Source: a virus
Reading direction: 5' to 3' (one strand)
Virus record (IMG/VR): IMGVR_UViG_3300020419_000103
Span: 1 to 20,292 of that record
DNA: 20,292 nucleotides
The translations under genes and the position numbers were made by a program. Position 1 is the first letter of the stretch. Every line of letters begins with the position of its first letter. The notes beneath the pieces are model-generated. The model was not told the origin of the DNA, ran no database searches, and worked only from the letters and a program-made list of their open reading frames with translations. Below are positions 1 to 17,100 of this stretch, one piece after another.

Positions 1-543
1 AGAAAAGTCTCCTTCATATTCATCACTGAAAGATATGTTCTCAAGTACAATAGGAATATCTCTTTTCTCTCCAATAGCACCTACCAAGTCTATTGTAACA
101 TTAAATGCTGGTTGGAAGAATGGTAGTATCTGTTCTACTATCTGCAATGCATCATCATTCAACTTAGTCATTACATTAAGTTCAAATCCCACATTGTAAG
201 GTACTGGTAAATATACTTTCTTTACTTTAGTATTAGATGGGTCTCTATTATCAACTGCTTTAAAAGTTCTTGTTATACTAGCTTTTCTACTAGGGTCGTA
301 TGACATAGATGTCATCTCAAATGACATTCTTGGTAATGTTATAGCAGTTGCTTTTGTTAATTCTTCTTGTTGCTCAAGTTTTGCTAAAAACTTTTGCTTT
401 GGTCCATATATTAATGGAACCTTAGTTTCACTAAGAGTGTTACCAGATCTATCATCATGCCTAATATTAACATCATTAAATAATGTACCAAAGGCAATAA
501 TGGTTTTTCTTAGTATCTCATGATAGAAATAAGTACCTAACAT
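1..543 (-). CDS. 15: Tail terminator / proximal tail sheath stabiliser, gp15-like (3' end off the window)
   Basis: The frame opens at ATG 543-541 and reads without a stop for 181 codons to base 1, so the C-terminus is missing. The N-terminus (MLGTYFYHEILRKTIIAFG) and the later segment IRHDDRSGNTLSETKVPLIYG resemble T4 gp15, which starts MFGYFYN and has a similar RVPITYASK strand. T4 gp15 is a hexameric ring that caps the tail tube and sheath and binds the neck. It is 272 residues long, so about two thirds is visible here. The start overlaps the gp14 stop by one base (TAATG), and a GGAGA ribosome binding site sits 6 nt upstream within the gp14 coding end. Its position directly after gp13 and gp14 matches T4 order and supports the call. 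Confidence 0.88.
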   Translation of the reverse strand, partial: MLGTYFYHEILRKTIIAFGTLFNDVNIRHDDRSGNTLSETKVPLIYGPKQKFLAKLEQQEELTKATAITLPRMSFEMTSMSYDPSRKASITRTFKAVDNRDPSNTKVKKVYLPVPYNVGFELNVMTKLNDDALQIVEQILPFFQPAFNVTIDLVGAIGEKRDIPIVLENISFSDEYEGDFS

Positions 544-2201
544 TATACATCTCCAAAGGGATTAGATTCGGTAAAGTCAAGAAGCTGATCTGCTTCTGTT
601 TCAAATTCATCATTCATAAAGTATTCATCACCAACAGCAGCAGCACTCAAATCATTATTGTAAGAGAATACTTGATACCTAGCGGATGATGCAGTTCCAG
701 TTATATATTCACCAGATCTGAAATCACCTGTATTTATGGATACTTCCAAACTTCTAGTTGTTGCATTCCAACTCTTAACATATGCTTCAGCACCAGACTC
801 TGAACCAACTACTCTTTCATTGAGATGATATGTTCCAATACCAGTACTCAATGGAGCACTAATAGAAACGGTTGGAGTTGCTTCATATCCACTACCAGCA
901 TCAGTTAGATATATTCTAAACATACTAGAACCAGATAGAGTTGCAACAGCAGTTGCTTGAACTTGACCTACCTTAGCACCAACCATAGCACCAGTTCCAA
1001 CAAAGGTAACAGATGCAGTTCCAGTACCACCTATAGAAGTTCCAATACCAATACTATTAGTACCAATAGAAGTTACAATTCCACCACCAGAAAGTATTTG
1101 AGCACCAACAACTTTGAAGTTAATAGTATGACCAATAGCAATATTTGCCATAGTATTAATTCCACTAATCTGCATTGTTCCAGCAGTAGCTACACCAGTA
1201 AATTCATATTGTTTATCGACAAATTGAGGATGTTGAATACTAACTATAGGTGGAGCAACATAGTTAGAACCTGGTTGTTGAATTCTAATAGAACAAATAC
1301 CACTGTTAGTTAATGTTGAAGTTGCAGCAGCACCTACACCTGGAGTACCAAATCCAATAGTAGGTGGTTCCTGATAAGCAAAACCTGGATTAGTTATTGC
1401 AAGATAATCTATAGCAGCAAGATTACCTTTTTGAGTTGTAATAGCAACGACAGCACCAAGAGATGTGGATACACCTGCAGGAGACGCTGAGACGCTAATA
1501 TTAGGCACTGAAGTATATCCAGAACCATCATCATTTAATGTGACCATTCTCATTGCACCTGATAGTGCAAAAGTATCTACAGATGCTTTAGCAGTAGATC
1601 CTATACCAGCTAAACTAACAGTAGTAATATTTCCTTCTTCACTCAATCTTGTATCAATAGCAGCAACATTTGTATCGATAATATCGTCTTGAAGTTGATA
1701 TAGTTCACATTGTAATTCGTAAGTATAATTTTTACCTAATTGAAAGAAAGGAGTTTCATGTTCTACAAGTTTAATCTCAAATAATCTTTCTCCTAATGGA
1801 AACCAGATAAGGTCTCCTTCTTTAGGTCTTGTTCCAAAATCAATATCACCATCTAAAGCACCAGTTAAGTTAGTGGAATTAAATTGAAAGGGAGCAATAA
1901 AGTCTTCAAATCTTTCTCTTGATATGGTCAAAGTAATCTCATTTTGTAAGTTGATGCCAAACTTTGTCATTACATCACTACCCTTAGCATAACCCTCATA
2001 GTTGTTTAGGTATGCTTCAATAAGATAATTATCATTAAACTTTGATGATTGTACTTCCCCTAATATATCATCTGTAACAATTTGTTTTCTTGGTATGTAA
2101 TAGACATCAATACCATGAATAGACAAATGCTCATCTACCAGAGACTGTACTAATCTCTGCTCATCAGGTGAACCATGCTGGAAGAACGGTGATACAGGCA
2201 T
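543..2201 (-). CDS. 14: Neck protein gp14-like, enlarged by inserted beta modules
   Basis: The N-terminal 185 residues (MPVSPFFQHGSPDEQRLVQS, then IDVYYIPRK, SSKFNDNYLIEAYL, GDLIWFPLGERLFEI and a YELQCELYQL strand) have the pattern of T4-type gp14. Together with gp13 this protein forms the neck that seals the filled head and receives the tail. T4 gp14 is 256 residues and this one is 552. The extra length lies mainly at residues 190-510, which is Gly/Thr/Ser-rich and holds GxGY-type strands near 225-230, 270-276, 309-314 and 434-439, followed by a GxESGA segment near 463-476. An acidic tail (523-546) precedes the end. The gene starts one base after the gp13 stop, with AGG 5 nt upstream, and ends in a TAATG overlap with gp15. 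The family call is firm; the role of the insert is unknown. Confidence 0.87.
   Translation of the reverse strand: MPVSPFFQHGSPDEQRLVQSLVDEHLSIHGIDVYYIPRKQIVTDDILGEVQSSKFNDNYLIEAYLNNYEGYAKGSDVMTKFGINLQNEITLTISRERFEDFIAPFQFNSTNLTGALDGDIDFGTRPKEGDLIWFPLGERLFEIKLVEHETPFFQLGKNYTYELQCELYQLQDDIIDTNVAAIDTRLSEEGNITTVSLAGIGSTAKASVDTFALSGAMRMVTLNDDGSGYTSVPNISVSASPAGVSTSLGAVVAITTQKGNLAAIDYLAITNPGFAYQEPPTIGFGTPGVGAAATSTLTNSGICSIRIQQPGSNYVAPPIVSIQHPQFVDKQYEFTGVATAGTMQISGINTMANIAIGHTINFKVVGAQILSGGGIVTSIGTNSIGIGTSIGGTGTASVTFVGTGAMVGAKVGQVQATAVATLSGSSMFRIYLTDAGSGYEATPTVSISAPLSTGIGTYHLNERVVGSESGAEAYVKSWNATTRSLEVSINTGDFRSGEYITGTASSARYQVFSYNNDLSAAAVGDEYFMNDEFETEADQLLDFTESNPFGDV
550..554 (-). promoter_or_regulatory. 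Ribosome binding site of gp15 inside the gp14 3' end
   Basis: GGAGA on the minus strand, 6 nt upstream of the gp15 ATG at 543-541. It is formed by the Gly-Asp codons of the gp14 C-terminus (FGDV-stop), so the site is also coding sequence. It supports the chosen gp15 start. Confidence 0.7.
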
Positions 2202-2202
2202 A

Positions 2203-3024
2203 TTAACCTATCATATCAAGAACTGGAATTTCGTAAGTAGATAGCATTTTTTCTTCTATCTCTCTTATCTCTAGATCACCATCTTCGTAGATCTGACGAC
2301 CATTGAGTTCTATACCACCAGGAAGTTTTACTCCTTGGAATTTTATGAGGTTCTGACCCCATTGCTTTTTAATCTTTGCTGTTAGATATCTCTTCAAGAA
2401 AGAATCATTATATACTCCACTATAGTTAGAAGGATCCATAATTCTATAACACTCAATTAATACATAATGACCAACAGTAGTAGAAGCCCAATCAATATCA
2501 AAATAAAGCTTATTGTTTCTCTTGTTGTATCTAATCTGAGTAGATGTAGTCAATAAGAAATTAATATCTTCTAGATATGTCTTGGTCATAGAATAATTTA
2601 GGAGACCATCATACCCCATGTTAAAAGCAACATCATTTAAAAACAACTGATACTTCAAGTTAAACATACCATTACTAAGTCCACTACTATCAAATTGCAT
2701 AACTCTTTCAATTCCTAATATAGAATCAGGTACAGTTATATAATTGGAATTTTCCTCAAATACACCAGATGCAGTAGTTGTACTAGTAATACCTAAATTA
2801 TTATCACCACCTCTTGCTCTACCTCTTCTCTTATCTTCTTCAGTAAGTTGATACTTAAGCAATACCTTTTCTACACCATCAAAATGTCTCTCATAGAAAA
2901 ACTGTAGAGAGTCATCCATTAAGTCGTCAACTTGCTCATCGGCAACATTAATCTCCAGAATTGGAGCACCTAATTGTCTTAAACAATAATCTTGTAATGT
3001 TGCCCTACTATTTGGTTTTGCCAT
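2203..3024 (-). CDS. 13: Neck protein gp13-like
   Basis: 273 residues, close to the 309 of T4 gp13. The N-terminus (MAKPNSRATLQDYCLRQLG, then PILEINVADEQVDDLMDDSLQFF) is the helical opening that recurs in gp13 neck proteins of marine T4-like phages. The later ITVPDSILGIERVMQF and KLYFDIDWAS strands, and the C-terminal KIKKQWGQNLIKF with PGGIELNGRQIYEDG, fit the same family. gp13 works with gp14 in the head-tail connector after DNA packaging. The ATG overlaps the stop of the giant fibre gene by one base and has a strong GGAGGA site 8 nt upstream, which fixes the start. gp14 follows after a single base. The order gp13-gp14-gp15 is that of T4. Confidence 0.9.
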   Translation of the reverse strand: MAKPNSRATLQDYCLRQLGAPILEINVADEQVDDLMDDSLQFFYERHFDGVEKVLLKYQLTEEDKRRGRARGGDNNLGITSTTTASGVFEENSNYITVPDSILGIERVMQFDSSGLSNGMFNLKYQLFLNDVAFNMGYDGLLNYSMTKTYLEDINFLLTTSTQIRYNKRNNKLYFDIDWASTTVGHYVLIECYRIMDPSNYSGVYNDSFLKRYLTAKIKKQWGQNLIKFQGVKLPGGIELNGRQIYEDGDLEIREIEEKMLSTYEIPVLDMIG

Positions 3025-6000
3025 TAGAAGAATCCTCCATCGATGGAGTTAGTCCATTGCGGAACTCCAGAAGCGTTTGTAGTCATTACATAGTTAGAAG
3101 TAGTTAGGAATCCAACTGTGCTTGCTGTACTTACCAACCTACCATCATCTTCAAAGTAAGCAACACCGTTAGGACCACTATATCCTATACCTGTGCTTCC
3201 CCCTTGATCTGAGCGATAGTATAATCCTTGTTTAAATGTAGCATATCCTACGACATGTACATTGTCTTGAATAGTAACTTGACCAGCAGCAGAATCTAGA
3301 ACTAACTCTCCACTATTAGTTTCAATCTTAGTTGCAGAGCTACCAGCACCAATCTTGATATTAGAAACTGTAGTAACACCAGTAATAACAACTTCGTTAA
3401 ATGTACTTATTCCAGTTACATTAATGTTTCTACCATTAACTTCATCATAAACAACATCACCTATAACATTTAAGTTACCAGCGATAAAGATATCATCTTG
3501 GAATGTTGCTATACCAACGAAAGTTGAGAAACCAGCGAAGGTCATTTCAGTAGCAATACCAGTTTGAATTCTGGCATTAGTTATTGCAAAGTTAGTTGCT
3601 AAACCAGCAGTAATCTTAGCGTCAAGAATGTCAGCATCAGCAAGGTCTACTGCATTAGCAGTTACTACACCAGCAGTTGCTGTTATAGAAGAACCAATTG
3701 CAACTTCACCTTTATAAACACCGTTATCCTTAAAGGTAACAATACCAAGCATCTCTGAACCAGATGCTCTAACAATCAATCTATCACCGATACCAGAAGC
3801 TGAACTATCAGCATACATTAACTTAAGTGTCTTATTATCGACAGTTAAGAAGTCGCTGCTACCAGCAGCAGTCTGTACACTAAAGTAATCACTTCTTATT
3901 TGAAGTCTGCTATATGTTGCATTACCATTTGCATGAGAGAGGACTGTATGACCTCTGTTAGCAAATCCATCTGTATCAACATGTTCAACAGTTAAGTCAT
4001 CATCTGAACCAATTCTTACCTTAACATTATCTGGGAGATCTGTGTGACTGTTAAGTCCAACAGGAGCATTAATTGTTAATGATCCATCACCAACAGTCTG
4101 ACCAACTGTGAATGCTGTAGCAAGACCTGTAGCGATCCTAGCATCTACTACATCAAGGTTATTAACATCTGCACTACTACTAACTGTTACAACGCCTGTA
4201 GCGTTGATTCTTTCAAATCTAGCAGTGTCTAAAACATCTAATCTATCTCTAGGTGAGTCAGTACGAATACCAACTTTCTGGTTAGCGTCAACACGCCATG
4301 CTTCTACATTCTCAGTGCTAGCTACAATAGTACCATCACTACCACTATCAGTTAAAGCAATAGATGTATCACCCTTCTGGAATGCATCCAGTTGAATAGT
4401 TGTAGCAGTTAAGATACCTAAGACATTGACATCACCAGTAATATTAACATCACCAGCACCAGCAGGGTCAATATTAATATCACCTGAGGTTGATTCAATA
4501 TTATTACCAGCAATCTGGATATTACCAAATGTACCACTAGTAGGTGTTACCTGACTACTATTACCAGAAGAATCTGAGATAGTTAGATTAGATAAAGCCT
4601 GTAAACTTGTTACCTGTTGAGAGAATGCAACTGTACCATTTTCTTGGTCAACATAGAATGCATCACCAACTCTAAAGTCTCCTTTCTGATCAATACTAAC
4701 GAATGATATGTCACCGTTATTAACTTGAGTGACTTCGTTTGCTTGGATTGCTGTGTTAGGATCGTTATTAATATTTCCACCAGCACCAACATGGTTGAAA
4801 TTAAGTGCAAAACATCTTAGTGTTACACCATCACCATCAGCAACAACACCCTTCTGACCGTACTCAACAGCACAACCCACAGAACGCATGTCAGCACCAA
4901 ACTGACTGTAATCTGCTAAGGTTATCCTAGTAGCAGTTCCTACTCCACTGTTAGGTTGAGTAATTCTGATGTCCTGAGTAACTACTGTATTATCAGTAGC
5001 AGTTGAGACACCGTTAGTTCCGTTAAAGTTAACTAGTAATGAAGTCTTTCTATTACCAGCAGCCTCAGCACTATTACCATAAGTATATGCACCATCTGGG
5101 AATGAATGCAATCCTTTCTGAACAAATACATCATCTATCCAACCTGTATGTGCATTAGCAGCACCATCAAAGTCAGCACCAATTACAATAGGTTTTTGTG
5201 TACCAAGATCAGTAGTATATGATGTTGCTTCAGCTCTCTTAGCACCATTAGAATATGCTATTAATTTTGTACCTAACTTAGCAACAGCAATGTGATGCCA
5301 TGCACCAGTTGTAATACCTGCACTAGTAGCCGATAATGCTGTAGTGTTTCCAACACGAACATCATATTCATTACCTCTGAAGGCAATACTTAAACCACTT
5401 GCATCAGTTCCTGAATCCCTAAAGTCAATAGCAGTAGCACTAGTTAATCCAGTAGTGTTTCTGTAAACCCAGAAACCAACAGCAAATTCTCCTGTACCAA
5501 ATCCAAACTGATCGTGAGATGCTGCACTAACAGAATCGTTAGTACCATCTAATTTAAGTGACGCACTACCAAACTTCTTAACACTGGTATCTAATTGTGC
5601 ATTACCATTAAATGTAAGTGTTTTAGCAGTTCTATTTTGAAGAATTTCAAATCCAAGTTGCTTACCACTTACATCAAGATATGTACCATCGTAGTTAGCT
5701 ACAACAGCAGTACCTAATCCAGTAACACCATCAGTGTCATAGTAAGTAATTGTATTACCAATGCCTAGCATTGATGTTGTAGTAATACCAGTTAATCTTA
5801 ATCTTGTCTTACCAGCAGATGCAATACCGAGTGTACCAGATTCACCTCTAATACCTTCAGAAGCAAAGTATGTGAAACAGTTAAGGAACTCAACACGAGC
5901 TCCGTTGGTCATTACTAGACCTTTAGCATTAGGTACAATGAAGGTTGCTTCATTGAATAACATTGCTGCTTCAATAGATCCTTCTTGAACCTGAGAACCA

Positions 6001-9000
6001 TCGATATATGCACCAGCACCAGCTATGTAAGAAGATGGAGCTGCATCAGCACTGTTAAATCCGTATAAATCATCTGCAGTTTGATTAGTACCTTTGTTTA
6101 ATACAGTTATACGCTGTACATAAGGTGATCTAGTAGTAATTGCAATACCAGGTTCATACTTAAATGCGTATCCTTCATTTGCTGATGTGTTGAAGAACAT
6201 GTCAGCGATAGTTAAGTCTTCAACGACTGTTCTATCATTAAGTAGGAAACAATCCTTTTGCTTAGTAGCACTTGTTGGAACAATCTTAGTAGCACGAAGA
6301 CCGTTACCTTTAACAGTTAATCCTGCAGGAACATATAATGGGAATGATTCTTCATAAACACCACCACCAATATTCAATGTTTCATTAACACCTATGATTG
6401 TAGGAGAGACATTAACATTAATTCTAAATGAAGTTGAATCAAGTACTGTAACAGCAGTTGTTACACCAGCAATAGGATCACTACCAGCACGAGGATAAGT
6501 CTTACTTGCAGTATTACCATCCATCGAACAGGTGAATGATAATGAATTATTATCAAGTGTTATAGTATCAGCAGTTGATAATCCGTGAGCAGAAGCAAAT
6601 GATAGAACTAACTCTCCAGTATGCTGGTTGTAAGTTGCTCCATTAGGAGACTTCTGATTACCTGACTCAGCACCACTCTGAACATTAACTGCGTTTGTAG
6701 CAGTTCCTCCATTATAAGTGTGATCATACTTATTAGAAATTCTTGATAAAGCGTATTTAATCGATTTGAACGGTCTTTCTCTAGTACGACCACGAGAAGC
6801 ATCGTAAGCATCAAGACCATGAGTATCAACAAACCATAAATCATCAGCAGGGTTGATTGTAGCAATACCAATCTGAGCAGGTTCTTTCCATGACAAAGTA
6901 TTGTCATCATTAGTACTCAACATGTGTTGAGTGTTAATACCAACAACTCCTGTGGAGTCATATAGTGAAGTTACATAACCAGAATTGATCTTAGCTGTTA
7001 GTGCATCAAAGTTTGTAACATCAATCGTAGTGATAGATGCAGCAGTACCAACAATATCAGTTATGATACCAGAGGTAATTTTAACATCCTTAAGATCTGC
7101 AGTCTCAGTATCAAATACTGTTATAGTTGCATATGTACCAACTTGAGATGTAATAATACCAGCAGTTATCTTAACATCTTGAAGATCTGCTGTCTCTGTG
7201 TCAAATGTTGTAATAGTTGCATAAGTACCAACTATTGATGTAATAACACCAGCAGTGATCTTAGCATTAACGATGTCACCTTCTGTGGCATCGATAGTTG
7301 TAATGGTTGCTGCAGTACCAACAATGTCAGTAACAGCAACTCCTGTAAAGCTTAAATTATCAGCACTTAAAGTTGTTACATGTGCTGTAGTAATAGTTGC
7401 ATAAGTACCAACCAATGATGTGACAACACCAGCAGTGATCTTAGCATTTACTATATCGCCTTCCGTAGCATCAATCGTAGTGATTGTAGCAGCAGTACCA
7501 ACGATATCAGTAATGATACCAGATGTAATCTTAACATCCTTAAGGTCTGCAACCTCGGTATCAAAAGTTGTTATAGTTGCATAAACACCAACTGTTGAAT
7601 CAACACTTAGATCATCAACATAAGCAACACCATCAATATGAATATCTTTCCACTGTTGAGTAGCAGTACCAATACTATAGGTATCGTCATCATCAGGGAT
7701 AAAGTTGGAATCAATATCAGCATTGAATACGACATTATCTGTTACAGAATCACCAAGACCGATTGTACCGCCATTAAAGGTTACATTACCAGTGAAGGTA
7801 GTTGCACCACCAACTCTAAGATCATTCGTAATATGAACATCTTGAATTGTTGAGTATGTACCAACTAGTGATGTAACAACACCAGCAGTGATCTTAGCAT
7901 TAACTATGTCACCTTCTGTAGCATCTATAGTTGTGATTGTTGCTGCTGTACCAACGATATCAGTAATGATACCAGCAGTAATCTTAACATCTTTAAGATC
8001 GGCAGTCTCAGTGTCAAATACTGTTATAGTTGCATAAGTACCAACCTGAGAGGTAATGATACCTGCAGTGATCTTAGCATTAACTATATCACCTTCTGTT
8101 GCATCAATTGTTGTTATAGTCGCTGCAGTACCAACAATATCAGTAATGATACCAGAGGTAATTTTAACTTGGTTAAGGTCTGCAACCTCTGTATCAAAAT
8201 TTGTAATAGTTGCATAGATACCAGTTATTGATGTAACAACACCAGCAACGATATTACCATGTATAATATCAGCTACAGTTGCATCAATCGTAGTTATGGT
8301 AGCAGCAGTACCAACGATATCAGTAATGATACCTGCAGTGATCTTAACATCTCTAAGATCTGCTGTTTCAGTGTCAAATACTGTTATGGTTGCATAAGTA
8401 CCAACTTGTGAAGTGATGATACCAGAAGTTATCTTGACATCATTAAGGTCAGCAGTTTCTGTATCAAATACAGTGATGGTAGCATAAGTACCAACTTGAG
8501 AGGTAATGATACCAGCAGTAACATATGCTGCTTCTATACCAAGATCATTAACATCTAACTGAGGAACAGTAGCAACACCAGTGATATTGACATCACCATC
8601 CACATCGAGAAGAGCTGTTGGCGTGGTAGTTCCCACCCCGACCCAACCGTCGCTATTACCTGAAACCCACTTAACATCACCTGAACCAATAACTAATTGA
8701 TCATCTTGATCTGGATATCTAACATCTTGTCCTTTACCAATGATAACATTGTTATTACCAGTATTATGAGTACCAGCAGAATTACCAATAGCAATATTAT
8801 CACTACCATAAACATTGTATAAAGTAAACGCACCAATAGCAATATTATTGCTCTGGTTAGTTGATATACCAGCACCCCATAGTGCTTCTCTACCTATACC
8901 AATATTCTGATTATGATCTTCTTTACCACTGTTTGTAGTAATACCTGACCTTACGACTAAGAATCCATAAGTATCAGTTAATCCAATACTACCAGTTGAT

Positions 9001-10244
9001 AAGTAAATGGCATCATTTACATCAGTTAATAATCCGAAATTATCCTGACCTTTAACTTTAAACTGACTACCAATTAATTTTGCTAGATGTGCATTAGTAC
9101 AAGTACCAATATTAAATGTTAAATTGCCAGTAACTGCATTATTAATAATTCCAAGGTCACCAAGATTAGCAATTGCTATTGCCCAATCACCACCAGTTAT
9201 GTTAGAATAGCTATCTGTAGTACCATATACTCTGTAAGCATATGGATCATTAGATAATTGACTACCATCAGAGAATGAAATAGTGCTTGCATCACCAGTC
9301 TCACCGTAAGTGATAACTGATTGAGAACCTAAATCTTGTGCTACCTTATCACCAATATAGATGTTATGGGAACCTTCTGCCTCTTGACCAGCATAATGTC
9401 CTAAGAAAAGGTTGGATTCTGCTTTGGTTTGACCACCCTTCTGGAAGGCACTGTGACCAATAGCAATATTTCTCTTAGTGTTATTACCTAAACCAGCTTG
9501 TTGACCTGCGAAGTTACCAATAAAGAACCCCTGACGATCACTACCATCAGTTTCTTGTTCACCTGCTTCTCTACCAATTCTTATTAACTGCGTTCTGAAG
9601 TCTACATTATCTTCAATAGTTGCTATACCAGTAACCGTAAGGTTCTTAGTAGTAGATGCATGACTTACATTGATCTGCTCAAACTGTGCAGATGTAGAAT
9701 TAAAATCGTTATATGTAGCACCAACACCAGCAAGAGCACTGATAATACCTACCTTACTTTGTAGGTTAAGAGTATCAGTAATATCAGTTACATAAAGAGT
9801 GGGTGCAGTTGCAACACCAGTTATATTCCAATTTCTTGCATTTACTTCATCGTATGATAAATCTCCTGTGACAGATAAATCTCCAGCAACGGTCAAATTA
9901 CCCGATACAGTGGCTGCAGCACCTACTAGAAGGTCAGTAGCTACACTCCAGGTGTCAATCTGTCCTGATGGGTTAAGAATAACCGCCTTAGATCCAGTTG
10001 GTTTACCAAAGTCTGCAGGGTTCTCTGGCAGCATATCGGTGTAGTATTCACCACCGATTGCTATTGGTGCAGAAGTATTACCGTCTGGATGACCAATATA
10101 TAATTTCTTATAAGACTTACCAGCACCTACATTAGATACATCGTAGGTGTATACTAATTCACCAAACGAGACACCAGTACCAACTGGTGCTGCGGTTGGA
10201 GGAGAGGTTCCTTGCGTCCTCTTTATCAGAATCGTTGCAGCCAT
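3024..10244 (-). CDS. Giant modular tail fibre / adhesin-like structural protein (2406 aa)
   Basis: The N-terminus (ATILIKRTQGTSPP, then SFGELVYTYD and KLYIGHPDGN) matches the IKR...GELAY...LYIG opening common in phage fibres. Modules follow: YadA-head-like NIAIG repeats at about 237-304 and 444-528; a VGVGTTTPTALLDVDG segment near 530-550 (echoed near 1985); a 30-residue repeat array at about 578-1089; a probable parallel beta-helix starting with LWFVDTHGLDAYD and RERPFKSIKYAL at about 1132-1470; a LamG/concanavalin-like domain at about 1546-1711 (FAVGFWVYRN, GAWHHIAVAK, GWIDDVFV); then GIAT-type strands to the end (SIDGGFF). No C-terminal autoprotease signature is evident. It lies where T4 has wac and gp12, so a host-contact fibre or whisker-like role is inferred. 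Start: ATG in a TAATG overlap with GGAGGGG 7 nt upstream. Confidence 0.82.
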   Translation of the reverse strand: MAATILIKRTQGTSPPTAAPVGTGVSFGELVYTYDVSNVGAGKSYKKLYIGHPDGNTSAPIAIGGEYYTDMLPENPADFGKPTGSKAVILNPSGQIDTWSVATDLLVGAAATVSGNLTVAGDLSVTGDLSYDEVNARNWNITGVATAPTLYVTDITDTLNLQSKVGIISALAGVGATYNDFNSTSAQFEQINVSHASTTKNLTVTGIATIEDNVDFRTQLIRIGREAGEQETDGSDRQGFFIGNFAGQQAGLGNNTKRNIAIGHSAFQKGGQTKAESNLFLGHYAGQEAEGSHNIYIGDKVAQDLGSQSVITYGETGDASTISFSDGSQLSNDPYAYRVYGTTDSYSNITGGDWAIAIANLGDLGIINNAVTGNLTFNIGTCTNAHLAKLIGSQFKVKGQDNFGLLTDVNDAIYLSTGSIGLTDTYGFLVVRSGITTNSGKEDHNQNIGIGREALWGAGISTNQSNNIAIGAFTLYNVYGSDNIAIGNSAGTHNTGNNNVIIGKGQDVRYPDQDDQLVIGSGDVKWVSGNSDGWVGVGTTTPTALLDVDGDVNITGVATVPQLDVNDLGIEAAYVTAGIITSQVGTYATITVFDTETADLNDVKITSGIITSQVGTYATITVFDTETADLRDVKITAGIITDIVGTAATITTIDATVADIIHGNIVAGVVTSITGIYATITNFDTEVADLNQVKITSGIITDIVGTAATITTIDATEGDIVNAKITAGIITSQVGTYATITVFDTETADLKDVKITAGIITDIVGTAATITTIDATEGDIVNAKITAGVVTSLVGTYSTIQDVHITNDLRVGGATTFTGNVTFNGGTIGLGDSVTDNVVFNADIDSNFIPDDDDTYSIGTATQQWKDIHIDGVAYVDDLSVDSTVGVYATITTFDTEVADLKDVKITSGIITDIVGTAATITTIDATEGDIVNAKITAGVVTSLVGTYATITTAHVTTLSADNLSFTGVAVTDIVGTAATITTIDATEGDIVNAKITAGVITSIVGTYATITTFDTETADLQDVKITAGIITSQVGTYATITVFDTETADLKDVKITSGIITDIVGTAASITTIDVTNFDALTAKINSGYVTSLYDSTGVVGINTQHMLSTNDDNTLSWKEPAQIGIATINPADDLWFVDTHGLDAYDASRGRTRERPFKSIKYALSRISNKYDHTYNGGTATNAVNVQSGAESGNQKSPNGATYNQHTGELVLSFASAHGLSTADTITLDNNSLSFTCSMDGNTASKTYPRAGSDPIAGVTTAVTVLDSTSFRINVNVSPTIIGVNETLNIGGGVYEESFPLYVPAGLTVKGNGLRATKIVPTSATKQKDCFLLNDRTVVEDLTIADMFFNTSANEGYAFKYEPGIAITTRSPYVQRITVLNKGTNQTADDLYGFNSADAAPSSYIAGAGAYIDGSQVQEGSIEAAMLFNEATFIVPNAKGLVMTNGARVEFLNCFTYFASEGIRGESGTLGIASAGKTRLRLTGITTTSMLGIGNTITYYDTDGVTGLGTAVVANYDGTYLDVSGKQLGFEILQNRTAKTLTFNGNAQLDTSVKKFGSASLKLDGTNDSVSAASHDQFGFGTGEFAVGFWVYRNTTGLTSATAIDFRDSGTDASGLSIAFRGNEYDVRVGNTTALSATSAGITTGAWHHIAVAKLGTKLIAYSNGAKRAEATSYTTDLGTQKPIVIGADFDGAANAHTGWIDDVFVQKGLHSFPDGAYTYGNSAEAAGNRKTSLLVNFNGTNGVSTATDNTVVTQDIRITQPNSGVGTATRITLADYSQFGADMRSVGCAVEYGQKGVVADGDGVTLRCFALNFNHVGAGGNINNDPNTAIQANEVTQVNNGDISFVSIDQKGDFRVGDAFYVDQENGTVAFSQQVTSLQALSNLTISDSSGNSSQVTPTSGTFGNIQIAGNNIESTSGDINIDPAGAGDVNITGDVNVLGILTATTIQLDAFQKGDTSIALTDSGSDGTIVASTENVEAWRVDANQKVGIRTDSPRDRLDVLDTARFERINATGVVTVSSSADVNNLDVVDARIATGLATAFTVGQTVGDGSLTINAPVGLNSHTDLPDNVKVRIGSDDDLTVEHVDTDGFANRGHTVLSHANGNATYSRLQIRSDYFSVQTAAGSSDFLTVDNKTLKLMYADSSASGIGDRLIVRASGSEMLGIVTFKDNGVYKGEVAIGSSITATAGVVTANAVDLADADILDAKITAGLATNFAITNARIQTGIATEMTFAGFSTFVGIATFQDDIFIAGNLNVIGDVVYDEVNGRNINVTGISTFNEVVITGVTTVSNIKIGAGSSATKIETNSGELVLDSAAGQVTIQDNVHVVGYATFKQGLYYRSDQGGSTGIGYSGPNGVAYFEDDGRLVSTASTVGFLTTSNYVMTTNASGVPQWTNSIDGGFF
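3033..3038 (-). promoter_or_regulatory. Ribosome binding site of gp13 inside the fibre gene 3' end
   Basis: GGAGGA on the minus strand, 8 nt before the gp13 ATG at 3024-3022. It is made by the two glycine codons of the upstream fibre C-terminus (DGGFF-stop). One sequence therefore sets both the fibre tail and gp13 translation. Confidence 0.8.
5114..5609 (-). other. LamG/concanavalin A-like domain in the fibre
   Basis: Residues about 1546-1711. The order of strands KFGSASLKLDGTNDSVS, FAVGFWVYRN, GAWHHIAVAKLGTKLIAYSN, KPIVIGADFDG and GWIDDVFVQKG is that of LamG/Laminin-G-3 jelly-roll domains. In other proteins these bind glycans or host surface molecules, which makes this the most likely receptor-binding module of the fibre. 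Specificity cannot be read from the sequence. Confidence 0.8.
6979..8513 (-). repeat. 90-bp in-frame repeat array in the fibre gene
   Basis: A conserved Gly codon opens each unit and falls at exact 90-nt steps: 8513, 8423, 8333, 8243, 8153, 8063, 7973 and 7883, and then, after an insertion, 7520 and 7430, and 7250, 7160, 7070 and 6980. Units translate to two alternating types, GIITSQVGTYATITVFDTE followed by TADLKDVKITA, and GIITDIVGTAATITTIDATE followed by GDIVNAKITA. Between the two blocks at about 7593-7832 is an unrelated insert of about 80 residues, and one unit near 7341 carries an extra residue. The regular hydrophobic and Thr pattern suggests a beta-helical or beta-spiral shaft. Confidence 0.92.
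7593..7832 (-). other. Non-repeat insert within the fibre array (DDDDTYSIG/WKDIHIDG module)
   Basis: This stretch of about 80 codons interrupts the 30-residue repeats. It contains NDLRVGGATTFTGNVTFNGG, then IPDDDDTYSIGTATQQWKDI. The D-x-x-Y-x-I/L-G-x-x-x-x-x-W-K-D-I pattern recurs in phage tail fibres, usually as a turn between shaft segments. Boundaries are approximate. Confidence 0.65.
8660..9535 (-). other. Two YadA-head-like repeat blocks in the fibre
   Basis: Two groups of short units (about residues 237-304 and 444-528) carry the pattern N-I-A-I-G-x-x-A-x, for example RNIAIGHSAFQKGG, NIAIGAFTLYNVYG and DNIAIGNSAGTHNTG. This is the left-handed beta-roll repeat of trimeric autotransporter heads, also used in phage fibres. 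They are separated by about 140 residues of ordinary beta-rich sequence. Confidence 0.7.
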
Positions 10245-10459
10245 TAGTATTCCCCTCCATCAACTGTGGTGGATGGTAAAGTTGTTTGTGTTATAAATTT
10301 TGCGGATGCTGAGTCATAGACCAGAAAACTACCGTTTGTTAAAGCACTTGCATTAACATCCGAAAGTAAAACTAGTTTACCTCCTCCTCCACCGCCCCCT
10401 AAAGAGCCGCTGGCAATAACCTTAACTTGGCTGCCAGTACCAATTCGTAAAGATGGCAT
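10244..10459 (-). CDS. Small Gly-rich structural protein resembling a fibre tip (71 aa)
   Basis: A 71-residue frame coupled on both sides by one-base TAATG overlaps: its start overlaps the end of the 111-residue gene and its stop overlaps the start of the giant fibre. After a short beta segment (SLRIGTGSQVKVIASGS) comes a run of seven glycines (20-26). The pattern LVLLSDVNASALTNGSFLVYD and AKFITQTTL follows, ending in VDGGEY. The second half looks like LSDV...LVYD...KFV tip or strand segments frequent in marine phage fibres, and its end mirrors the C-terminus of the 2406-residue fibre (IDGGFF). It may be a minor fibre subunit or connector, but no function is established. A weak AGGGG lies about 10 nt upstream of the ATG. 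Confidence 0.78.
   Translation of the reverse strand: MPSLRIGTGSQVKVIASGSLGGGGGGGKLVLLSDVNASALTNGSFLVYDSASAKFITQTTLPSTTVDGGEY
10252..10258 (-). promoter_or_regulatory. Ribosome binding site of the giant fibre gene
   Basis: GGAGGGG on the minus strand, 7 nt upstream of the ATG at 10244-10242. It lies in the Gly-Gly codons of the upstream 71-residue protein (DGGEY-stop). It is one of the strongest purine-rich sites in the window and fixes the fibre start. Confidence 0.8.
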
Positions 10460-10794
10460 TACCTTGTTACCCCTGCTCTAACATTGACCATTCCTTCAAC
10501 GACTTTTACCTTGCTTGTTCCGTCTTGCAAAACAACATCGTAAAGATAACGGCCAGGTTTAATATCGGTTGTTATAGTAGATGCCATAGAGATTTGAATT
10601 TCTCCATCCGTGGCACTGGATACAGTCGATGCAAAAGACACAGCAGTTGTGCTTCCTGCCCATTTACGCAATTGCGATGTTACCGTGAAACCTGCTAGAT
10701 TTAGGGTAGTGTTATTATCGTTATCACCAAGAGAAAATAAATGTTCAAAATCAGTACCCGATTCAATCTGCAAATTTGCGACATATACTGCCAT
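10459..10794 (-). CDS. Small beta-rich virion protein, prophage upper-baseplate-like (111 aa)
   Basis: The layout VANLQIESGTDFEHLFSLGD, LNLAGFTVTSQLRKWAGS, DGEIQISMASTITTDIKPGR, YLYDVVLQDGTSKVKVVEG and VRAGVTR is that of a widespread family of about 100-residue phage proteins. Members have a gap after 'LxGYTxxxQIR', then 'LPAGRYxYDVxxTxxxGxVxRLxEG', and resemble the N-terminal beta-sandwich of upper baseplate proteins (BppU-like). In such phages it attaches receptor-binding parts to the baseplate; the same role is inferred here because it directly precedes a tip-like gene and the fibre. It follows a 20-nt gap after the coiled-coil gene, the only real gap downstream of the gp8 promoter. No clear Shine-Dalgarno precedes the ATG. 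Confidence 0.82.
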   Translation of the reverse strand: MAVYVANLQIESGTDFEHLFSLGDNDNNTTLNLAGFTVTSQLRKWAGSTTAVSFASTVSSATDGEIQISMASTITTDIKPGRYLYDVVLQDGTSKVKVVEGMVNVRAGVTR

Positions 10795-10814
10795 CTTTTA
10801 TGCTGACTATTATC

Positions 10815-11003
10815 CTATAAGGTATTTAGTTGCTTTATCTCTGTCAGAACTTCTTGCAATACTTGTGTTAGTTGACTCATTTTCATATCCAATCGATCTA
10901 TATCATTTCTTATAATTTCAAGATCACCCAATTCTGCTACTTTTGCTGGTACACATTCGTCTCCATGAAGGAATCTTAAGTGTTCAATGTGTGGATCTCT
11001 CAT
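10815..11003 (-). CDS. Coiled-coil mini-protein B (62 aa)
   Basis: I do not recognise a named family. The N-terminal 25 residues (MRDPHIEHLRFLHGDECVPA) contain His/Asp/Cys and may form a small folded head. From residue 28 to 59 hydrophobic residues fall at 28, 31, 35, 38, 42, 45, 49, 52, 56 and 59, an unbroken a/d heptad pattern, so a helical coiled coil is very likely. The start overlaps the stop of the previous small gene by 4 nt (ATGA). Placement between baseplate and fibre genes suggests a minor virion part, a connector or an assembly chaperone; T4 gp57A is a small coiled-coil fibre chaperone, but no sequence relation is claimed. Confidence 0.8.
   Translation of the reverse strand: MRDPHIEHLRFLHGDECVPAKVAELGDLEIIRNDIDRLDMKMSQLTQVLQEVLTEIKQLNTL
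10823..10829 (-). promoter_or_regulatory. Possible secondary late promoter before the 111-aa gene
   Basis: CTAAATA followed by CC on the minus strand, inside the last codons of coiled-coil protein B and about 28 nt upstream of the ATG at 10794. It shares TAAATACC with the strong box upstream of gp8 but lacks a full TATAAATA. It coincides with the second largest gap of the operon, hence the tentative call. Confidence 0.3.
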
Positions 11004-11197
11004 AGTTTTTCTGTAATTTTAGCAAGCATTTCTTTTATCTCAGAAATCTCTTGCTTCATAGTATCTAGTTCTTCTTTTTGTGTAGACCTTTTTTCTCTTG
11101 CCTTGACATATGCTGAATAACCAGAGCTATCATCGTTTATGATAGCTCCTGTCTTTTCATCTCTATAGAGATTTGAGTAACCTTCAACCCTTATCAT
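11000..11197 (-). CDS. Coiled-coil mini-protein A (65 aa)
   Basis: The N-terminal segment MIRVEGYSNLYRDEKTGAII followed by NDDSSGYSAYVKAR resembles small uncharacterised proteins in marine T4-like phages; this is from memory of the pattern, not from a search. The C-terminal half is a charged helix with hydrophobic residues at 44, 47, 51, 54, 58, 61 and 65, a clean heptad pattern. It overlaps the giant upstream gene by 4 nt (ATGA) and the next small gene by 4 nt, which implies coupled translation. No Shine-Dalgarno is visible before its ATG. The role is unknown; a structural or assembly helper for the neighbouring giant proteins is an inference. Confidence 0.82.
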   Translation of the reverse strand: MIRVEGYSNLYRDEKTGAIINDDSSGYSAYVKAREKRSTQKEELDTMKQEISEIKEMLAKITEKL

Positions 11198-14100
11198 GCT
11201 AATGCTAACGCTCTAATGTTCTTAAGAACAGGAACTTCAGCTTGGTTAGTACCGTTAAATACAACCTTAATAACAAATCCAGTATAAGGTTCTAGATCGT
11301 TAATACTATACTGATATTCTCTGAACTCTCCACCAGGATTTATGAATTTATCAGGACGGCCATCGTTCTTTGCAGTATCGATTGGCGTATCCCCAAACCC
11401 ATTACCAGTGGTATCAACGCTATTTAGATAGCCAGGGAACAATACAAATTTCTGATCAACTTCACTAGCATCACCTCTAATCAAACTATACAACACCCTG
11501 AAGTCAGTAGATGCAGGTCTAAATGCATCAAATATAACTTGCAACGAAGTTGCTGGTTGTTTGATAAGAATTGGTTTAGAAACATAGTATGAAGTATGTT
11601 GATCACCAAATAGAACATTAGCTCTTGGATCTGAAGCATACGCATCATCTCCAATTGGTTTATTAAGTCTATTAGAAGAGAACTTAAATGCCATTGTATC
11701 TAAACAAATCATTGGAGAACTATGGAAGTTTCCTCCGTTATTCATTGCAACTCTAGCAGTTAAAGATCTATTCCTAAAGAGATTAGTTAACCTTGCATTT
11801 TCATTTGCTTCAGAAGCAACTATTCTAGTGGATGAAAGTTTTGTTGGTTGGTTGAGAACATAACTCTCAAATCCTTGATCAACAAATGAGGCTTCTTCAC
11901 CATCAATACTAGTTCCACTAACAGTTCTAACACTTAAGTTAGCAGTATCGGTAGGACCAGGTACTGTTATGTCAAATACTGGTGTAATAGTATCATACTG
12001 TATATTCTTAGAGGCATGAACATGAGCTCCACCGCCATGAATATCAGCATTGAATGAAAGTTGTGGTTGGGATAGACCTGAGATGTCGGTAGTTCTACCT
12101 TCTCTGTCAATCTTAATCATAAAGTCATCCATATTTCTACCAGTAACCTCAACACTATGCTCAGTATTGATCTTACCTAGACCAATTCCAGCAAATTCAT
12201 ACTTTTGGATATTAGATCCTTGAGCATGGTTGATAGATTGAGTGTTATTTACACCTCTAGTAATACCACTTAGAGTATTAACTCCAACAGCAGTGTAAGA
12301 GATAATTTCATTATTCAAAATAGCATAACCTGTGTTAGCAGCACTAACAATAACTCCTTCATAAACATTGTATCCAGTACTGTCTGCTATAGAAATACTA
12401 TTTGAGGTAGAATTAACTATAGTAGCAGTTGTTGTTGGAAGAGTATTTGGAGATACTCCACTAATCGCAACTTTATTACCAGTACCATACATGCCATGAT
12501 TGAAGTATGATAGTTTTGCATATTCTCCAGTATAAACGCTACCAGTTTCATCGTATCTAGTAACATCTAAACCAGAATCAATAAGAGTTCCAAGGTCATG
12601 ATAGTAATTAACACTAGCTGCATTACCAAATTCTTCTGCTTGGACATTTGTTAGATACAATGTATCCAAACCACCAAGAGAATTAATACCAATTCTAGCT
12701 CCAGAACCACTACCACTCATTTCAGCAGTAACAATTCCTACAATATCACCAACTTGATAACCTTGACCATCATCTTGAATAGTAACAGCAGTAACACCAC
12801 TATTACCAGTACCAACAGTTACACCTAATTTTAATCCAGCACCTTGACCTGTAATTGCATATGTTGCAACAGCAGCAGATGATGGAGTTCCATAGTTGAG
12901 ACCATTTGTTGAGATACCAACTGCAAGAGTACCACCAGTTTTAACTGGTCCACCCGTTGATTCGATATATCCATATCGATAATTTGCAGAAGCATCACCA
13001 ACTTTTCTACCAGGAACAAATACAGTACCAATAAGACCAGCATTAGTTGTTGTAGTGATTCCAAGTGCAGCTTTCTTAGGAAGCGCATGAATTGGATTCT
13101 TATTCAATACTGGTAAGATACCATTATTTGCTCTAATAGGTGGGTTCTGGAATGTTACTACAGCATCTTGATGAATGAACTCTGCTCTATACAACTTGAA
13201 GCACAAGTCTTCAAACTGACATGGAGTCCATGTAGAAGCATTCTGTGATTTAAACAGAGATCCAACTGAGAACTGGTTAGCATATACTCTACCAGCAGCA
13301 CTTGGTAAATCCTGAGCATTAAGCGCAGTCTGTCCCATCTCTGCTGTAAATACCTCATAGGTGTTCGTAGGAGCACCTACAACGATAGCATACTCTGTAG
13401 CAGGTTCTAAGTATATTGGAGAACTAAATGTCGCTTTAGTTGCCACTGAAGCATCAGTAGACAAATTAATATCATTAGATGTTAAAATTACCCTAGCATC
13501 TGGAGACACCAATTTTGTAGTAGGTGTTCCTAATTCCATTGTCCTTAACTCTACAAAAGCAGGGACTTCTGGATCTAGCATAGTTGCAAAGTAAACATCA
13601 ACAGAAGTAATATATGCACCATATTGGTCAACCTTAAATGATTGTGCCAATGGGTCATCATTCTCTTCAGCTTGAGGAGGAGCAGGTACTGGGAACGGAA
13701 CAGGTTGAATAATAGTTCTAGTATTATCAACAACCTGTGTAACAGTATTATCAATAGTTTGCTGTACAGTAACAGTTCTATCAATAGTCCTTCTATCAAC
13801 AAATGTTCTTGTTCTGTCAATAACCCTTGTATTATTAATAATAACGGGGGCAGGAGGTGGTGGTGGTGGGGGTGGTCTTCGGTTTACGAAGGTCAGACTT
13901 ATATCTCTCTGTATTGTCGTAGTTTCTAGTGTCGTAACACTAACATCAGTTTGTACAATTCTTGTAGTTCCAACGGCAGTGTAGATTGCTTGAGCAGCTG
14001 AAATAGCAGTGCTTCCTCTTAATCCAGTAGCATTGACAGAACTAGAAGATACCTTAAATTCTCTTTCACCAGTTCTTACTCTAGCAAGTGGAGCAGGAGA

Positions 14101-17100
14101 AGCAAATGGATCTCTAACCCATACACATGCTCTTAAATCTCCATAGTTGTCAGAGAATAAACCAAGATCAGCAATAGTTGCTTGAGCACCGCTACTTTCT
14201 CCAGATACCACAGTACCTATTGGAAGATATCCAAAGAAATCTCCTTGAGGTGCAGAAGCTAAAGCAGTCGTATCTATGTTAATAACAGTAGAACCTTGTG
14301 AGTATGCTACAGGTAATGTTTCCTCTCTGTCTAAAGGATTATGCTCATAAGACATTGTAGGAGCAGCAAATGGTCCTTTCTTATGATCAGGTCTACAAAG
14401 TCTGAAACGATATGTTTCACCATTAACTAATGCAGTAATAGTTTCACCAACAGTAAATGCACCAACAACATTACTAATACCTATAACTTTAGGAACTACA
14501 TCAACATTGCCAAGTTCATCAAAGAATGTAAAGAATCTAGCATTTGGTCTTAAACCATTTACATCATATTCTATATTTCTAGATCTAATAAATGGATCAA
14601 ATTCTTCACTAGCAATAAAAGTATTTCTAGATGTTATATCATCTCTTTCTACTTTCTGTACACTATCCTGAGTACTTGCTTGCAATTCATCATCACCAAA
14701 ACCACCATCAACATTAGTTACCGCTACTCTTGGATCAATTGAAGTTCTTCTAATAACTTGTGTTTGTAGTGTTTGTGTCCTATGAGTATTAATCCAGTTA
14801 TCACTAGTTGGACTTAATTTTAAATCACCAATATAACTATAGACTAAAAATGGGTTAAGATTTTCTACTCTAGTTGCAAAATTCTGTTCAACAAATGCAG
14901 TTTCTTTATAATCTAATGTAATCATTCTACCTGTCTTTCTTGCCTTACCATCCAATAAAGCAAAGTCCTGACTAAAATCTAATGTCTCAGGTGGTTCTTG
15001 TGTAGCAGGTAATACCTGCATATCAATAGAACTGAGATCAGTTAAAGGACGCATATGTCCTCTAGTAGAATCTATATCAATAGGAGATGATACATCAACA
15101 AAAGTTCTAGACTTCAATGAATCTGCAAAGAAACCACTCTTAAATCTATCAAGACCATCAGCATCTTTAACTTGTAAAGTAGCAACTTTCTGTTCTAATA
15201 GAGATAGTGATGTAACATTTTCTAGATTCTCAACTCTATCTTCAATAGCACCGATATCACGCATTGTGTAACGGCGATTATCTATTAAGAATACCCTAGC
15301 ATTTGAAGTTTGGTAAAGGAATGGTGGCCACGCAATCGTAGCTAAAACCATAGAACCAGGATCATCAGCAGGTGGTACAGGTTTTACAGATGGTTCACCT
15401 TGATGAACTATTATATTACCTGTTGATTTAAGAAGAACTTTATCCATTCTTCCCAAATAATGCTTATACTTGAACCTAGAATTCTCATTTGGTGTTGGAA
15501 TTCTATTACCTGATTGTATTGTGTCTCTATTTGATGGGAAGAATGGAGATACAGCAGCACTAGATGGAGTAAATTCTACAACCCTAGGTCTGAAATCAAG
15601 AGTATCAGTTGCTCTCTTACTCGATTTACCTATACCAGGAATATCTTTCTTAAATCTTTCTGCATCATAACTGTTGACAGTAAATACATCTCCAGTATCA
15701 GCAGATGGAATCTCATACCTATCAAGAACAACTAGAAGTTTTCTAGATGGAATATAACCATCATTGATTCTTAATAGTCTAGAATAGTCGTAATACTGTT
15801 CTCTTTGACCTTGATCTAAAGTAAATGCATCTGTTACATCATTATATTTTCCAGGAGTTGTACCCTGTAATGTGGCAGATGAATTAGATTCTTGGAATAA
15901 AAGAGTTTCTAAAAGTTGGAATTTATCTGTAGTTTTATATACAATACTAATACTGCTAGTACCAGCATTAACAGAAACTATAATAGCAACAGAGTTACTA
16001 TTCTCACCTACAATGGTTTCACCAACAATCGCATTTTGGAAAATAGGATCTGTAGAGCTAAAAACTAATTGATCAAGAATTGGTTTATTTTTATCTAAAG
16101 ATTCATAAACAGCAGCAACTTTTGCTACATCTGGGAAGTTTAAACAAATTTCTTCATCCTGAACTCTTATACCATAAAGACCACTAGGAGTTAATCCATC
16201 ATCAACACTACTTCCAGTTGTAGTTCCAGATGAATCTTTAGATGAATATACTATTTCAATTTCTTGACTTCTTTTATATTCTTTAACTTTACTCTTAATA
16301 TTACTCTTAGCAACTGTTACATTAACTTTAATGTTAGATTCAGAGAATGCCAATCCACTAAAAGTTAAAACATCATCAGTAACTGTAACTTGATCTTCAG
16401 TGATAGTTGCAACTAAACCACTACTATATTGTACTTGATATCTTTCTTGATCAAATGAAACAAAATTACAATCATCAATAGTAAGAGAACTACTATTAAC
16501 AACTAAAGTTCCATTTGCATCAGTTGATTCACCAGTTACTTGATCTGAAAGAATTAACTGAGCTCCAGTAAAATCAATATCAGCAATATGTTTCTGTGGA
16601 AGTGGTAAATATAAACCAGCAGCATCCTCATTACTTAACTGTTGCTCACCTATAAAGATTGGACCTTCATACTGAGAACCTGGAAGAGATCCAGTATAAA
16701 GATTGGGGTTAGTTGTTAATGCAGCAACTCTCATGCTACCACCATCATTGGCAACATATGATACTACATTACGATTAGGTAAAGATTGACCTGGTCGTCT
16801 ATAGATTATAATATCTCCAGGTTTAAATCTTTCAAATGTTCTACCTACACAAGTTACATCACCATTAGTAGCAATTCTAACAGGATCATCTCCTCTTAAA
16901 CCATAAGGTATTTTTTCATTTAATACTTTCTTAGCATAGAATGTATTTGACTGTTGAACATTCTCAACATTATTCATATTGTAAGCAATTACCTTATCAA
17001 CAACTCTAGATAAGTTTTCATTACTTCTAAACTTAATTCTTTCTCCTGCTTGGAAATGACCAGATACTTGAGTTAAAGTGATAGTACTACTTCCAGCACC

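Follow-up and report, generated by a model that had tools for sequence, protein, structure and literature searches.

Phage tail fibres are reshaped by recombination, both through the modular exchange of tail-fibre genes and through small-domain duplications such as those in T4 gp37, and repeat arrays are often homogenised or change in copy number. In such fibres whole domains or tips move, or copy number grows, whereas in the system described here, a tandem array of 30-residue units (words) in a tail-fibre or baseplate gene of 2,406 amino acids (aa), it is the single words that turn over, at similar array length. Among the papers listed in our literature searches no title concerned unit-level exchange in a fibre shaft, without our claiming that none exists. 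The gene lies in the virus record IMGVR_UViG_3300020419_000103, and the whole stretch analysed, 20,292 bases, is referred to as the window; its own record is only this long, and the gene content is best read as that of a marine T4-like (cyanomyovirus-like) phage.

The closest described setting is the host-recognition cluster of marine T4-like phages, namely pelagimyophages and cyanomyophages, which, in the parts of the source drawn on here, is a hypervariable region between the VrlC gene and gp14 with tail-fibre genes and with carbohydrate-binding domains, e.g. concanavalin A and YadA, in structural proteins (PMC7029224). The array gene shares with it the place in the genome, the company of tail-fibre genes and a concanavalin A-type domain. 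However, the cluster has a mean size of 44.6 kilobases (kb) in pelagimyophages, whereas the corresponding phrog_358-gp14 stretch spans about 9 kb here (2202-11193), and those parts of the source do not describe a unit array (PMC7029224). Structural precedents come from two fibres. The proximal long tail fibre gp34 of T4 has, according to the portion of its description used here, a trimeric β-helix shaft punctuated by wider domains (PMC5537660), much as a 61-residue insert punctuates the array; however, its triple β-helix is without a clear sequence motif in that portion (PMC5537660), whereas the array motif is strict at 30 residues. The fibre protein P22 of the chlorovirus PBCV-1 (A122/123R, Vp260; PDB 8h2i) is a homotrimeric right-handed parallel β-helix fibre, which the part of its report used here compares with T4 gp34 (PMC9617893). 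Like the array it is repetitive in sequence, and it is the best sequence match among solved structures, but it belongs to an algal virus and its repeats are spaced by some 64 residues in the alignment. Pentapeptide repeat proteins and designed β-solenoids have in common with the array a five-residue rhythm and weak sequence and fold matches; unlike the pentapeptide repeat proteins, the array has no Pfam pentapeptide hit among the matches listed.

A tandem array of 30-residue units

The array consists of 15 units of 30 residues (aa 581-1091; window 6972-8504, minus strand, as are all features below). A scan of the 2,406-aa frame with a unit matrix recovered 15 non-overlapping copies above 15 bits, with scores of 33.9-82.0 bits, against at most 9.05 when the protein was shuffled 200 times, a control that is partly circular as the matrix was made from the same 15 units. 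Independently of the matrix, Tandem Repeats Finder reported periods of 90 and 180 base pairs (bp), and the array first noticed in the initial annotation is thus real. That annotation placed about 14 units at 6979-8513, bounds and count that are corrected here; the second halves of three units (U8, U11 and U15) have diverged. Its exact, perfect 90-bp register is strict within block 1 (U1-U8; 7785..8504) and within block 2 (U9-U15; 6972..7601) but does not run across the array: the 61-aa insert between the blocks (7602..7784), found at the same place in close relatives, creates a 91-residue step and shifts the register by one residue. By type, the units follow the order A A B' A' B A B x in block 1 and A' B D B A A B' in block 2, bearing out the observation that types A and B do not strictly alternate. 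Each unit can be divided into six pentads, along which inward-type residues recur regularly. Directly downstream lies a conserved anchor, TSLYDSTGVVGINTQH (aa 1092-1107; 6924..6971), which is present together with an upstream anchor in 29 of the 40 arrays described below. A weak trace of further units is seen in the window protein at aa 2189-2223 (window 3576-3680; 42% identity, E 5e-4), and many relatives (L021, L030, L036, L043, L049) have a second unit pair roughly 860-970 residues later in that protein.

Unit pairs in the window with 28-30 of 30 identical residues differ at 9-17 nucleotides (nt) and show 8-15 synonymous codon differences; U7 and U10 are identical in all 30 residues with 11 synonymous differences. 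The initial annotation had illustrated this with a pair of copies said to differ at roughly ten synonymous sites. The count holds for the type-B pair evidently meant, U5 (8055-8144) and U7 (7875-7964), which share 28 of 30 residues and differ by 13 nt and 10 synonymous codon differences, while the unit near 7973 is actually of type A. Near-identical DNA between neighbouring units was looked for and not seen, the closest pair in the window (U7 and U12) matching at 81/90 nt. Since random codon draws from the rest of the gene predict 13.7-15.0 synonymous differences, against the 8-15 observed, silent sites in the window array are near, and mostly below, saturation.

A scan of viral contigs yielded 71 loci, all IMG/VR contigs and mostly metagenomic, each with at least two units at a threshold of 12 bits (shuffle maximum 9.05). 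Grouping the loci that share at least 30% identical unit DNA left 40 non-redundant arrays, including that of the window (W), several of which are cut by contig ends. These hold 456 units with 287 distinct peptides and 436 distinct DNA sequences; 330 of the 456 have one of five second-half types, and words are shared among arrays that order them differently. The commonest word, TDIVGTAATITTIDATEGDIVNAKITAGVV, occurs 23 times in 17 of the 40 arrays, in 23 different DNA sequences. A 25-residue unit type, e.g. TDLAVTNLVNQVGIITNAYIDVGVV, is found amid 30-residue units (L028, L046), and L017 and others have steps of 55 residues; the array can thus change its length by one pentad.

Array content usually changes more than its flanks

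Array length was measured from anchor to anchor in 29 of the 40 arrays, the other 11 lacking one or both anchors, and lies within 551-563 aa in the close group formed by W, L011, L013, L017, L018 and L019. Among relatives, the array usually changes more than its adjoining flanks, at similar length: in 81 of the 106 pairs with an N-flank identity of at least 0.75 it is less identical than both flanks, and of the same pairs, which share members and so are not independent, 72 differ in array length by no more than 12 aa and 19 by 25 aa or more. In close relatives the N-terminal part (aa 1-560) is likewise better conserved than the array. Compared in fixed register, W and L011 have different words at five of the 15 slots, W and L013 at eight, W and L018 at nine, and L011 and L018 at ten, at N-flank protein identities of 0.88-0.92 for pairs among these four.

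Single slots have also been replaced in place, in three to four events. The search ran over 114 locus pairs and gave 28 pairwise cases, which reduce to five distinct word pairs, two of them at one slot; the sites are aa 648 and 903 in L021/L027, aa 594 in L036/L041 and aa 595 in L049/L055. Replaced slots match at 50-72/90 nt while their neighbours match at 84-88/90. Thus, L021 and L027 agree at 84-90/90 nt at ten of the first twelve slots, and at only 69 and 55 at aa 648 and 903. The two alleles of slot 594 recur at the matching slot of other lineages (L041/L045 90/90; L036/L056 88/90), and within their own arrays the best matches are 61 and 78 of 90. Two further cases concern larger stretches. 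L011 (~5101-8400) and L012 share a 100% identical stretch of some 3 kb that contains the array, with flanks of 67-82% upstream and 82-97% on the other side (82-94% further downstream), which reflects either a recent exchange or a chimeric contig. L030 and L057 are mostly 93-100% identical from ~3600 onward, with part of the array at 67-91%, one later step at 90% and the upstream genes at 78-84%, as would fit an array that changed inside a nearly identical background.

A strict junction rule governs which words adjoin each other. Units ending in LAV, VAV or IAV are followed by TD in all 85 steps of 30 residues, and those ending in GVV, GVI or GLV by TS in all 91, while GII allows both (43 TS, 83 TD). 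Within units, S at position 2 is paired with Y at position 7 in 210/235 cases and D with A in 192/203. Part of this grammar is surely inheritance, as words and their neighbours share ancestry.

Divergence within and between arrays

If arrays were homogenised, the same words would be more alike within an array than between phages. Same-word pairs were defined by at least 28 of 30 identical residues, and 228 further pairs without a common anchor were set aside. Within arrays (n=76), 10, 3, 1 and 0 pairs reach at least 80, 82, 84 and 86 of 90 identical nt; the corresponding numbers are 143, 79, 36 and 15 for other slots of different phages (n=1,667) and 349, 265, 195 and 124 for the same slot (n=728). 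Over the 40 arrays the closest within-array pair is that of L021 slots 618 and 648, at 84/90 nt, and the longest exact internal repeat per array is 11-47 nt. It had been suggested that copy order might record duplication history; with no within-array pair exceeding 84/90 nt, duplications, if any, are too old to order, the L021 pair being one possible exception.

In six related arrays (W, L011, L013, L015, L018, L019) silent sites diverge by 0.372 among units of one array (64 pairs). Across phages the figure is 0.361 for different slots (333 pairs) and 0.257 for matching slots (101 pairs), while the flanks show 0.16-0.23 among W, L013 and L018, or 0.03-0.25 with L011 included. Unit trees for these data comprise 90 columns and are weakly resolved (0/15 and 3/30 inner branches starred), for which reason only label tests were used. 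By slot, the type-B tree requires 6 changes against a shuffled mean of 11.3 and the type-A tree 14 against 21.0, with 0/200 shuffles as low in either; by phage there is no grouping (B 14 against 12.6, A 22 against 21.9). B slots 7 and 13 and A slots 4 and 9 each fall on one side of a branch. Since units within an array are as diverged as other-slot units elsewhere and the trees do not group by phage, the array does not evolve in concert as a homogenised tandem repeat. A crude ratio of nonsynonymous to synonymous differences (pN/pS) among same-type units of the six arrays is 0.059 for type B and 0.110 for type A. Together these observations support unit proteins held by purifying selection with silent sites near a plateau, and with it the proposal of an old array under protein-level selection: silent divergence within arrays equals that of other slots between phages and exceeds that of the flanks. 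The interpretation given in the initial annotation is thereby supported in part.

Predicted structure

Hydrophobicity along the array has a power of 4.4 at a period of five residues (99% of shuffles 4.1) and of 21.8 at 2.5 residues, the shuffle reference being for the five-residue period only. This is a five-residue periodicity of hydrophobic side chains of the pentapeptide type, and along with the 25-residue units it makes the pentad a likely structural step. The pentapeptide family of Pfam was not among the matches listed (whole protein with E to 0.1; 24 array stretches with E to 10, the first in full and the best 25 of 35 families over all of them). AlphaFold gave all-β single-chain models for two parts of the array, with a best mean predicted local distance difference test score (pLDDT) of 81 and 80; the five models of the second part range from 80 to 62. 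Fold searches with these models returned best Z scores of 12.2 (root-mean-square deviation (rmsd) 2.5, 165 aligned) and 13.1 (rmsd 3.6, 178 aligned), amid a large number of unrelated solenoids; T4 gp34 and PBCV-1 P22 were not among the best 50 matches of each search, which is no evidence against them. By sequence, P22 is the best solved relative (E 6e-7 and 3e-9; profile 1e-5) and is not matched by the reversed-sequence control, but the best single stretch has an independent E value (i-E) of only 0.01 with biased composition, so that common descent of P22 and the array is not established. The array shaft would probably be homotrimeric.

Interpretation and alternatives

On balance, we lean towards an old, probably trimeric, β-structured fibre shaft that is under purifying selection and in which words turn over. 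The array would form the shaft section of a long, probably homotrimeric tail-fibre or baseplate-fibre protein, with each 30-residue unit a predicted β-solenoid or β-helix layer. Selection on the β layer would hold the words, and homogenising gene conversion would be rare. Word turnover would combine replacement in place with slot gains and losses that balance, and recombination between phages sharing a host cell would account for part of it. The junction rule may reflect the packing of consecutive layers, and length may be held because the fibre must reach a fixed distance.

Several observations weigh against this reading. Array length is not constant over the family, ranging over 515-629 aa in the 29 anchored arrays; conservation is lower in the LamG region than in the array for nine of the 14 tabulated relatives, and lower in the N-terminal part for five distant ones. 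The second halves of 126 of the 456 units belong to none of the five main types, every array stems from a metagenome contig, and clustering by slot is partial, with four of 13 slot groups unclustered (B slot 10; A slots 5, 6 and 12). The five models of block 1 spread from pLDDT 81 to 37, and Foldseek returned no match at E 0.001 or better. Only three to four independent single-slot replacements were resolved; a search for the origin of slots 903 and 595 gave no clear candidate anywhere (best 73-80/90). L021 slot 648 matches its own-array neighbour 618 at 84/90 nt, nearly as well as a slot of L024 (86/90), so that copying inside the array explains it equally well, and we have dropped the general claim that replaced slots have no donor in the same array. 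Finally, block 2 of W aligns better with those of L013 and L018 under a two-slot shift than slot by slot (W12 matches L018 slot 10 at 84/90 nt): with gaps allowed, W and L018 are offset by two missing slots at the start and two additional ones at the end, and four aligned slots match at 72-84/90 nt. The word changes in this block are thus, at least partly, gain and loss and not in-place replacement, and the view that eight or nine of the 15 slots had been replaced in place between W and these two relatives was likewise abandoned. Slots 3-5 of W and L018 nevertheless remain replaced when gaps are allowed, at 56-61/90 nt between slots of 82 and 78; hence both balanced gain and loss and replacement are needed.

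The two-slot loss at one end and gain at the other also bears on a rival that we rate as possible but unlikely, in which turnover happens inside the array, by copying to neighbouring slots and loss through unequal crossing-over with length balanced, such that other phages are unneeded. The L021 618/648 pair, the closest within any of the 40 arrays, speaks for it as well. However, close copies are not enriched above 80/90 nt: 3 of 76 within-array pairs against 79 of 1,667 other-slot pairs reach at least 82, and only at the threshold of at least 80 is there a slight excess within arrays (10/76 against 143/1,667). The near-identical alleles of slot 594, moreover, occur in other lineages only. That the units arose once long ago and have since changed by point mutation alone in a frozen array is distinctly unlikely: several slots do group across phages, the 61-aa insert keeps its place in close relatives and silent sites are near their plateau, but point mutation would not be expected to change whole words at 5-10 of 15 slots next to an N-flank of 0.88-0.92 identity, nor to leave slots 3-5 of W and L018 so diverged between well-matched slots, nor to produce isolated slots of 50-72/90 between neighbours of 84-88. 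The initial annotation had offered, as another option, codon diversification that limits recombination, i.e. selection for different codons in each copy to prevent recombination and deletion. An exact internal repeat that never exceeds 47 nt in 40 arrays and the absence of same-word pairs at 86/90 (0/76) accord with it, but at the other-slot rate of 15/1,667 only 0.7 pairs of at least 86 are expected, so that zero is no deficit. Shuffling synonymous codons within arrays, for pairs with at least 26 of 30 identical residues in 29 arrays, predicts a silent difference of 0.52 against the 0.40 observed (129 pairs), with the observed value below the shuffle mean in 27 of the 29 and about equal in L030 and L051. 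Similarly, in 39 of the 40 arrays (one being too short) the longest internal repeat is below the 5th shuffle percentile in none and above the 95th in 17. The observed/expected silent difference is 0.77 within arrays and 0.72 between phages; a modest column-specific codon bias (e.g. GTT GGT ACT at columns 4-6) may explain why same words are more alike than shuffles in both settings. With silent differences not above, and internal repeats not below, the shuffle expectation, a codon-diversified repeat is rejected as very improbable.

Two more explanations concern the data and a specialised mutator. It is quite unlikely that near-identical arrays exist but are broken or collapsed by metagenome assembly. 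All 71 loci are IMG/VR contigs, and in 12 the contig end lies no more than 200 nt from the outermost unit, as such an artefact would have it, but the last 60 nt recur exactly in the same contig at none of these 12 ends (best 33-55/60), which argues against repeat-driven breakage without excluding it. Eight of the 12 ends recur exactly in other loci, which says little, as for five of them all matching loci belong to the same near-identical cluster. Further, 29 arrays, that of the window included, are spanned from anchor to anchor, and the artefact would leave the replaced slots unexplained. Rewriting of units by a diversity-generating retroelement would agree with change confined to one part of a fibre protein, yet is barely credible: no match to the reverse transcriptase family was found in any of the 15 records searched, most of them fragments, and the changes swap whole words with silent differences.

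Genomic context and distribution

Seven frames of the window, all on the minus strand, have family matches and together represent a T4-like structural module, with the order, in one direction, gp8, phrog_358, LtfC-like, array gene, head-tail adaptor, gp14 and gp15; the matches include PF09215 (gp8), PF11649 (neck protein), PF16724 (gp15) and PHROG Ad2. The C-terminal half of the array gene (3024..10244) matches PHROG 'baseplate wedge subunit' families, and the gene belongs with the PHROG fibre families phrog_1469 and phrog_13163: phrog_1469 is hit with E 3e-238 (best stretch aa 1279-2337), and phrog_13163 by aa 110-219 of the N-terminal part that forms the upstream flank of the array (8565..10244). 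The array region alone retrieved from PHROG only phrog_16267, of unknown function (E 4e-4), and weaker matches, and no curated family gave it a convincing match in Pfam and PHROG searches. NIAIG motifs precede the array at aa 259, 467 and 483 (window 8782-8846 and 9456-9470); they are not a family hit, but we take them to recall the heads of YadA-like trimeric adhesins. C-terminal to the array is a LamG/concanavalin A-like lectin domain (aa 1566-1708; 5121..5549; PF13385, E 5e-13), possibly the receptor-binding part of the protein.

Upstream of the array gene, a 111-aa protein (10459..10794) matches the PHROG annotation 'L-shaped tail fiber protein assembly' (E 2e-29) and is LtfC-like in Pfam, although under the Pfam cut-off; it is a possible helper of fibre assembly. 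Next come a 2,457-aa structural protein of phrog_358 (11194..18567), whose relatives are annotated as VriC or virulence-associated structural protein and which has a run of eight prolines at aa 1565, and a T4 gp8-like baseplate wedge protein (18572..20149). On the other side lies the head-tail adaptor (2203..3024; PHROG Ad2), at what we take to be the position of gp13 in T4-like genomes. It is followed by a T4 gp14-like neck protein (543..2201) and a T4 gp15-like tail sheath stabiliser cut by the window end (1..543). The gp14-like protein has a long C-terminal part (aa 175-452) matching several virion structural and tail-fibre PHROGs, and the neck family phrog_460 itself covers aa 1-368.

Among phage records, relatives of the parts after the array number 402 for the whole protein and 357 for aa 1085-1300, all below 60% identity and mostly from Synechococcus and Prochlorococcus phages. 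Photosystem reaction-centre genes occur in three of 12 relatives' records, with two copies in a record of 179,846 bases, so some array carriers are likely cyanophages. No second array gene was found in these 12 records, as the unit matches of each share one open-frame length and lie close together. Array carriers were absent from genome contigs (90 pattern stretches, none confirmed), and tblastn of phage records with the array or a word composite gave nothing even at E 10, where the low-complexity filter may mask the query. With the DNA filter on, blastn of phage records returned one 45-nt match to the window array and one 95-nt match to the L041 array region. Ten stretches from nine phage records (isolates and single-cell viruses) contained no unit, the best score being 2.7 bits in frames of at least 200 aa. 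Thus, no named phage record with the array was found by tblastn, blastn or unit scan, with the proviso that filters may mask the query.

Implications for fibre evolution

The arrays described here combine conserved unit proteins, silent sites near a plateau, close DNA copies that are rare over 40 arrays, reshuffled word order and similar length. This combination suggests that fibre length may be under selection apart from fibre content. The 456 units and the strict junction rule are a natural data set on the residues needed by a β-fibre layer and on the neighbours that a layer permits. A stronger version, which we regard as rather doubtful, is a length-locked, slot-addressed shaft with interchangeable 30-residue words, in which slot alleles occur in several phage lineages and recombination exchanges them in place. 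Were it true, the surface of the fibre would be remixed without changing its length or fold, and fibres would then evolve in a way that differs from copy-number change, from tip exchange and from mutagenesis by a retroelement.

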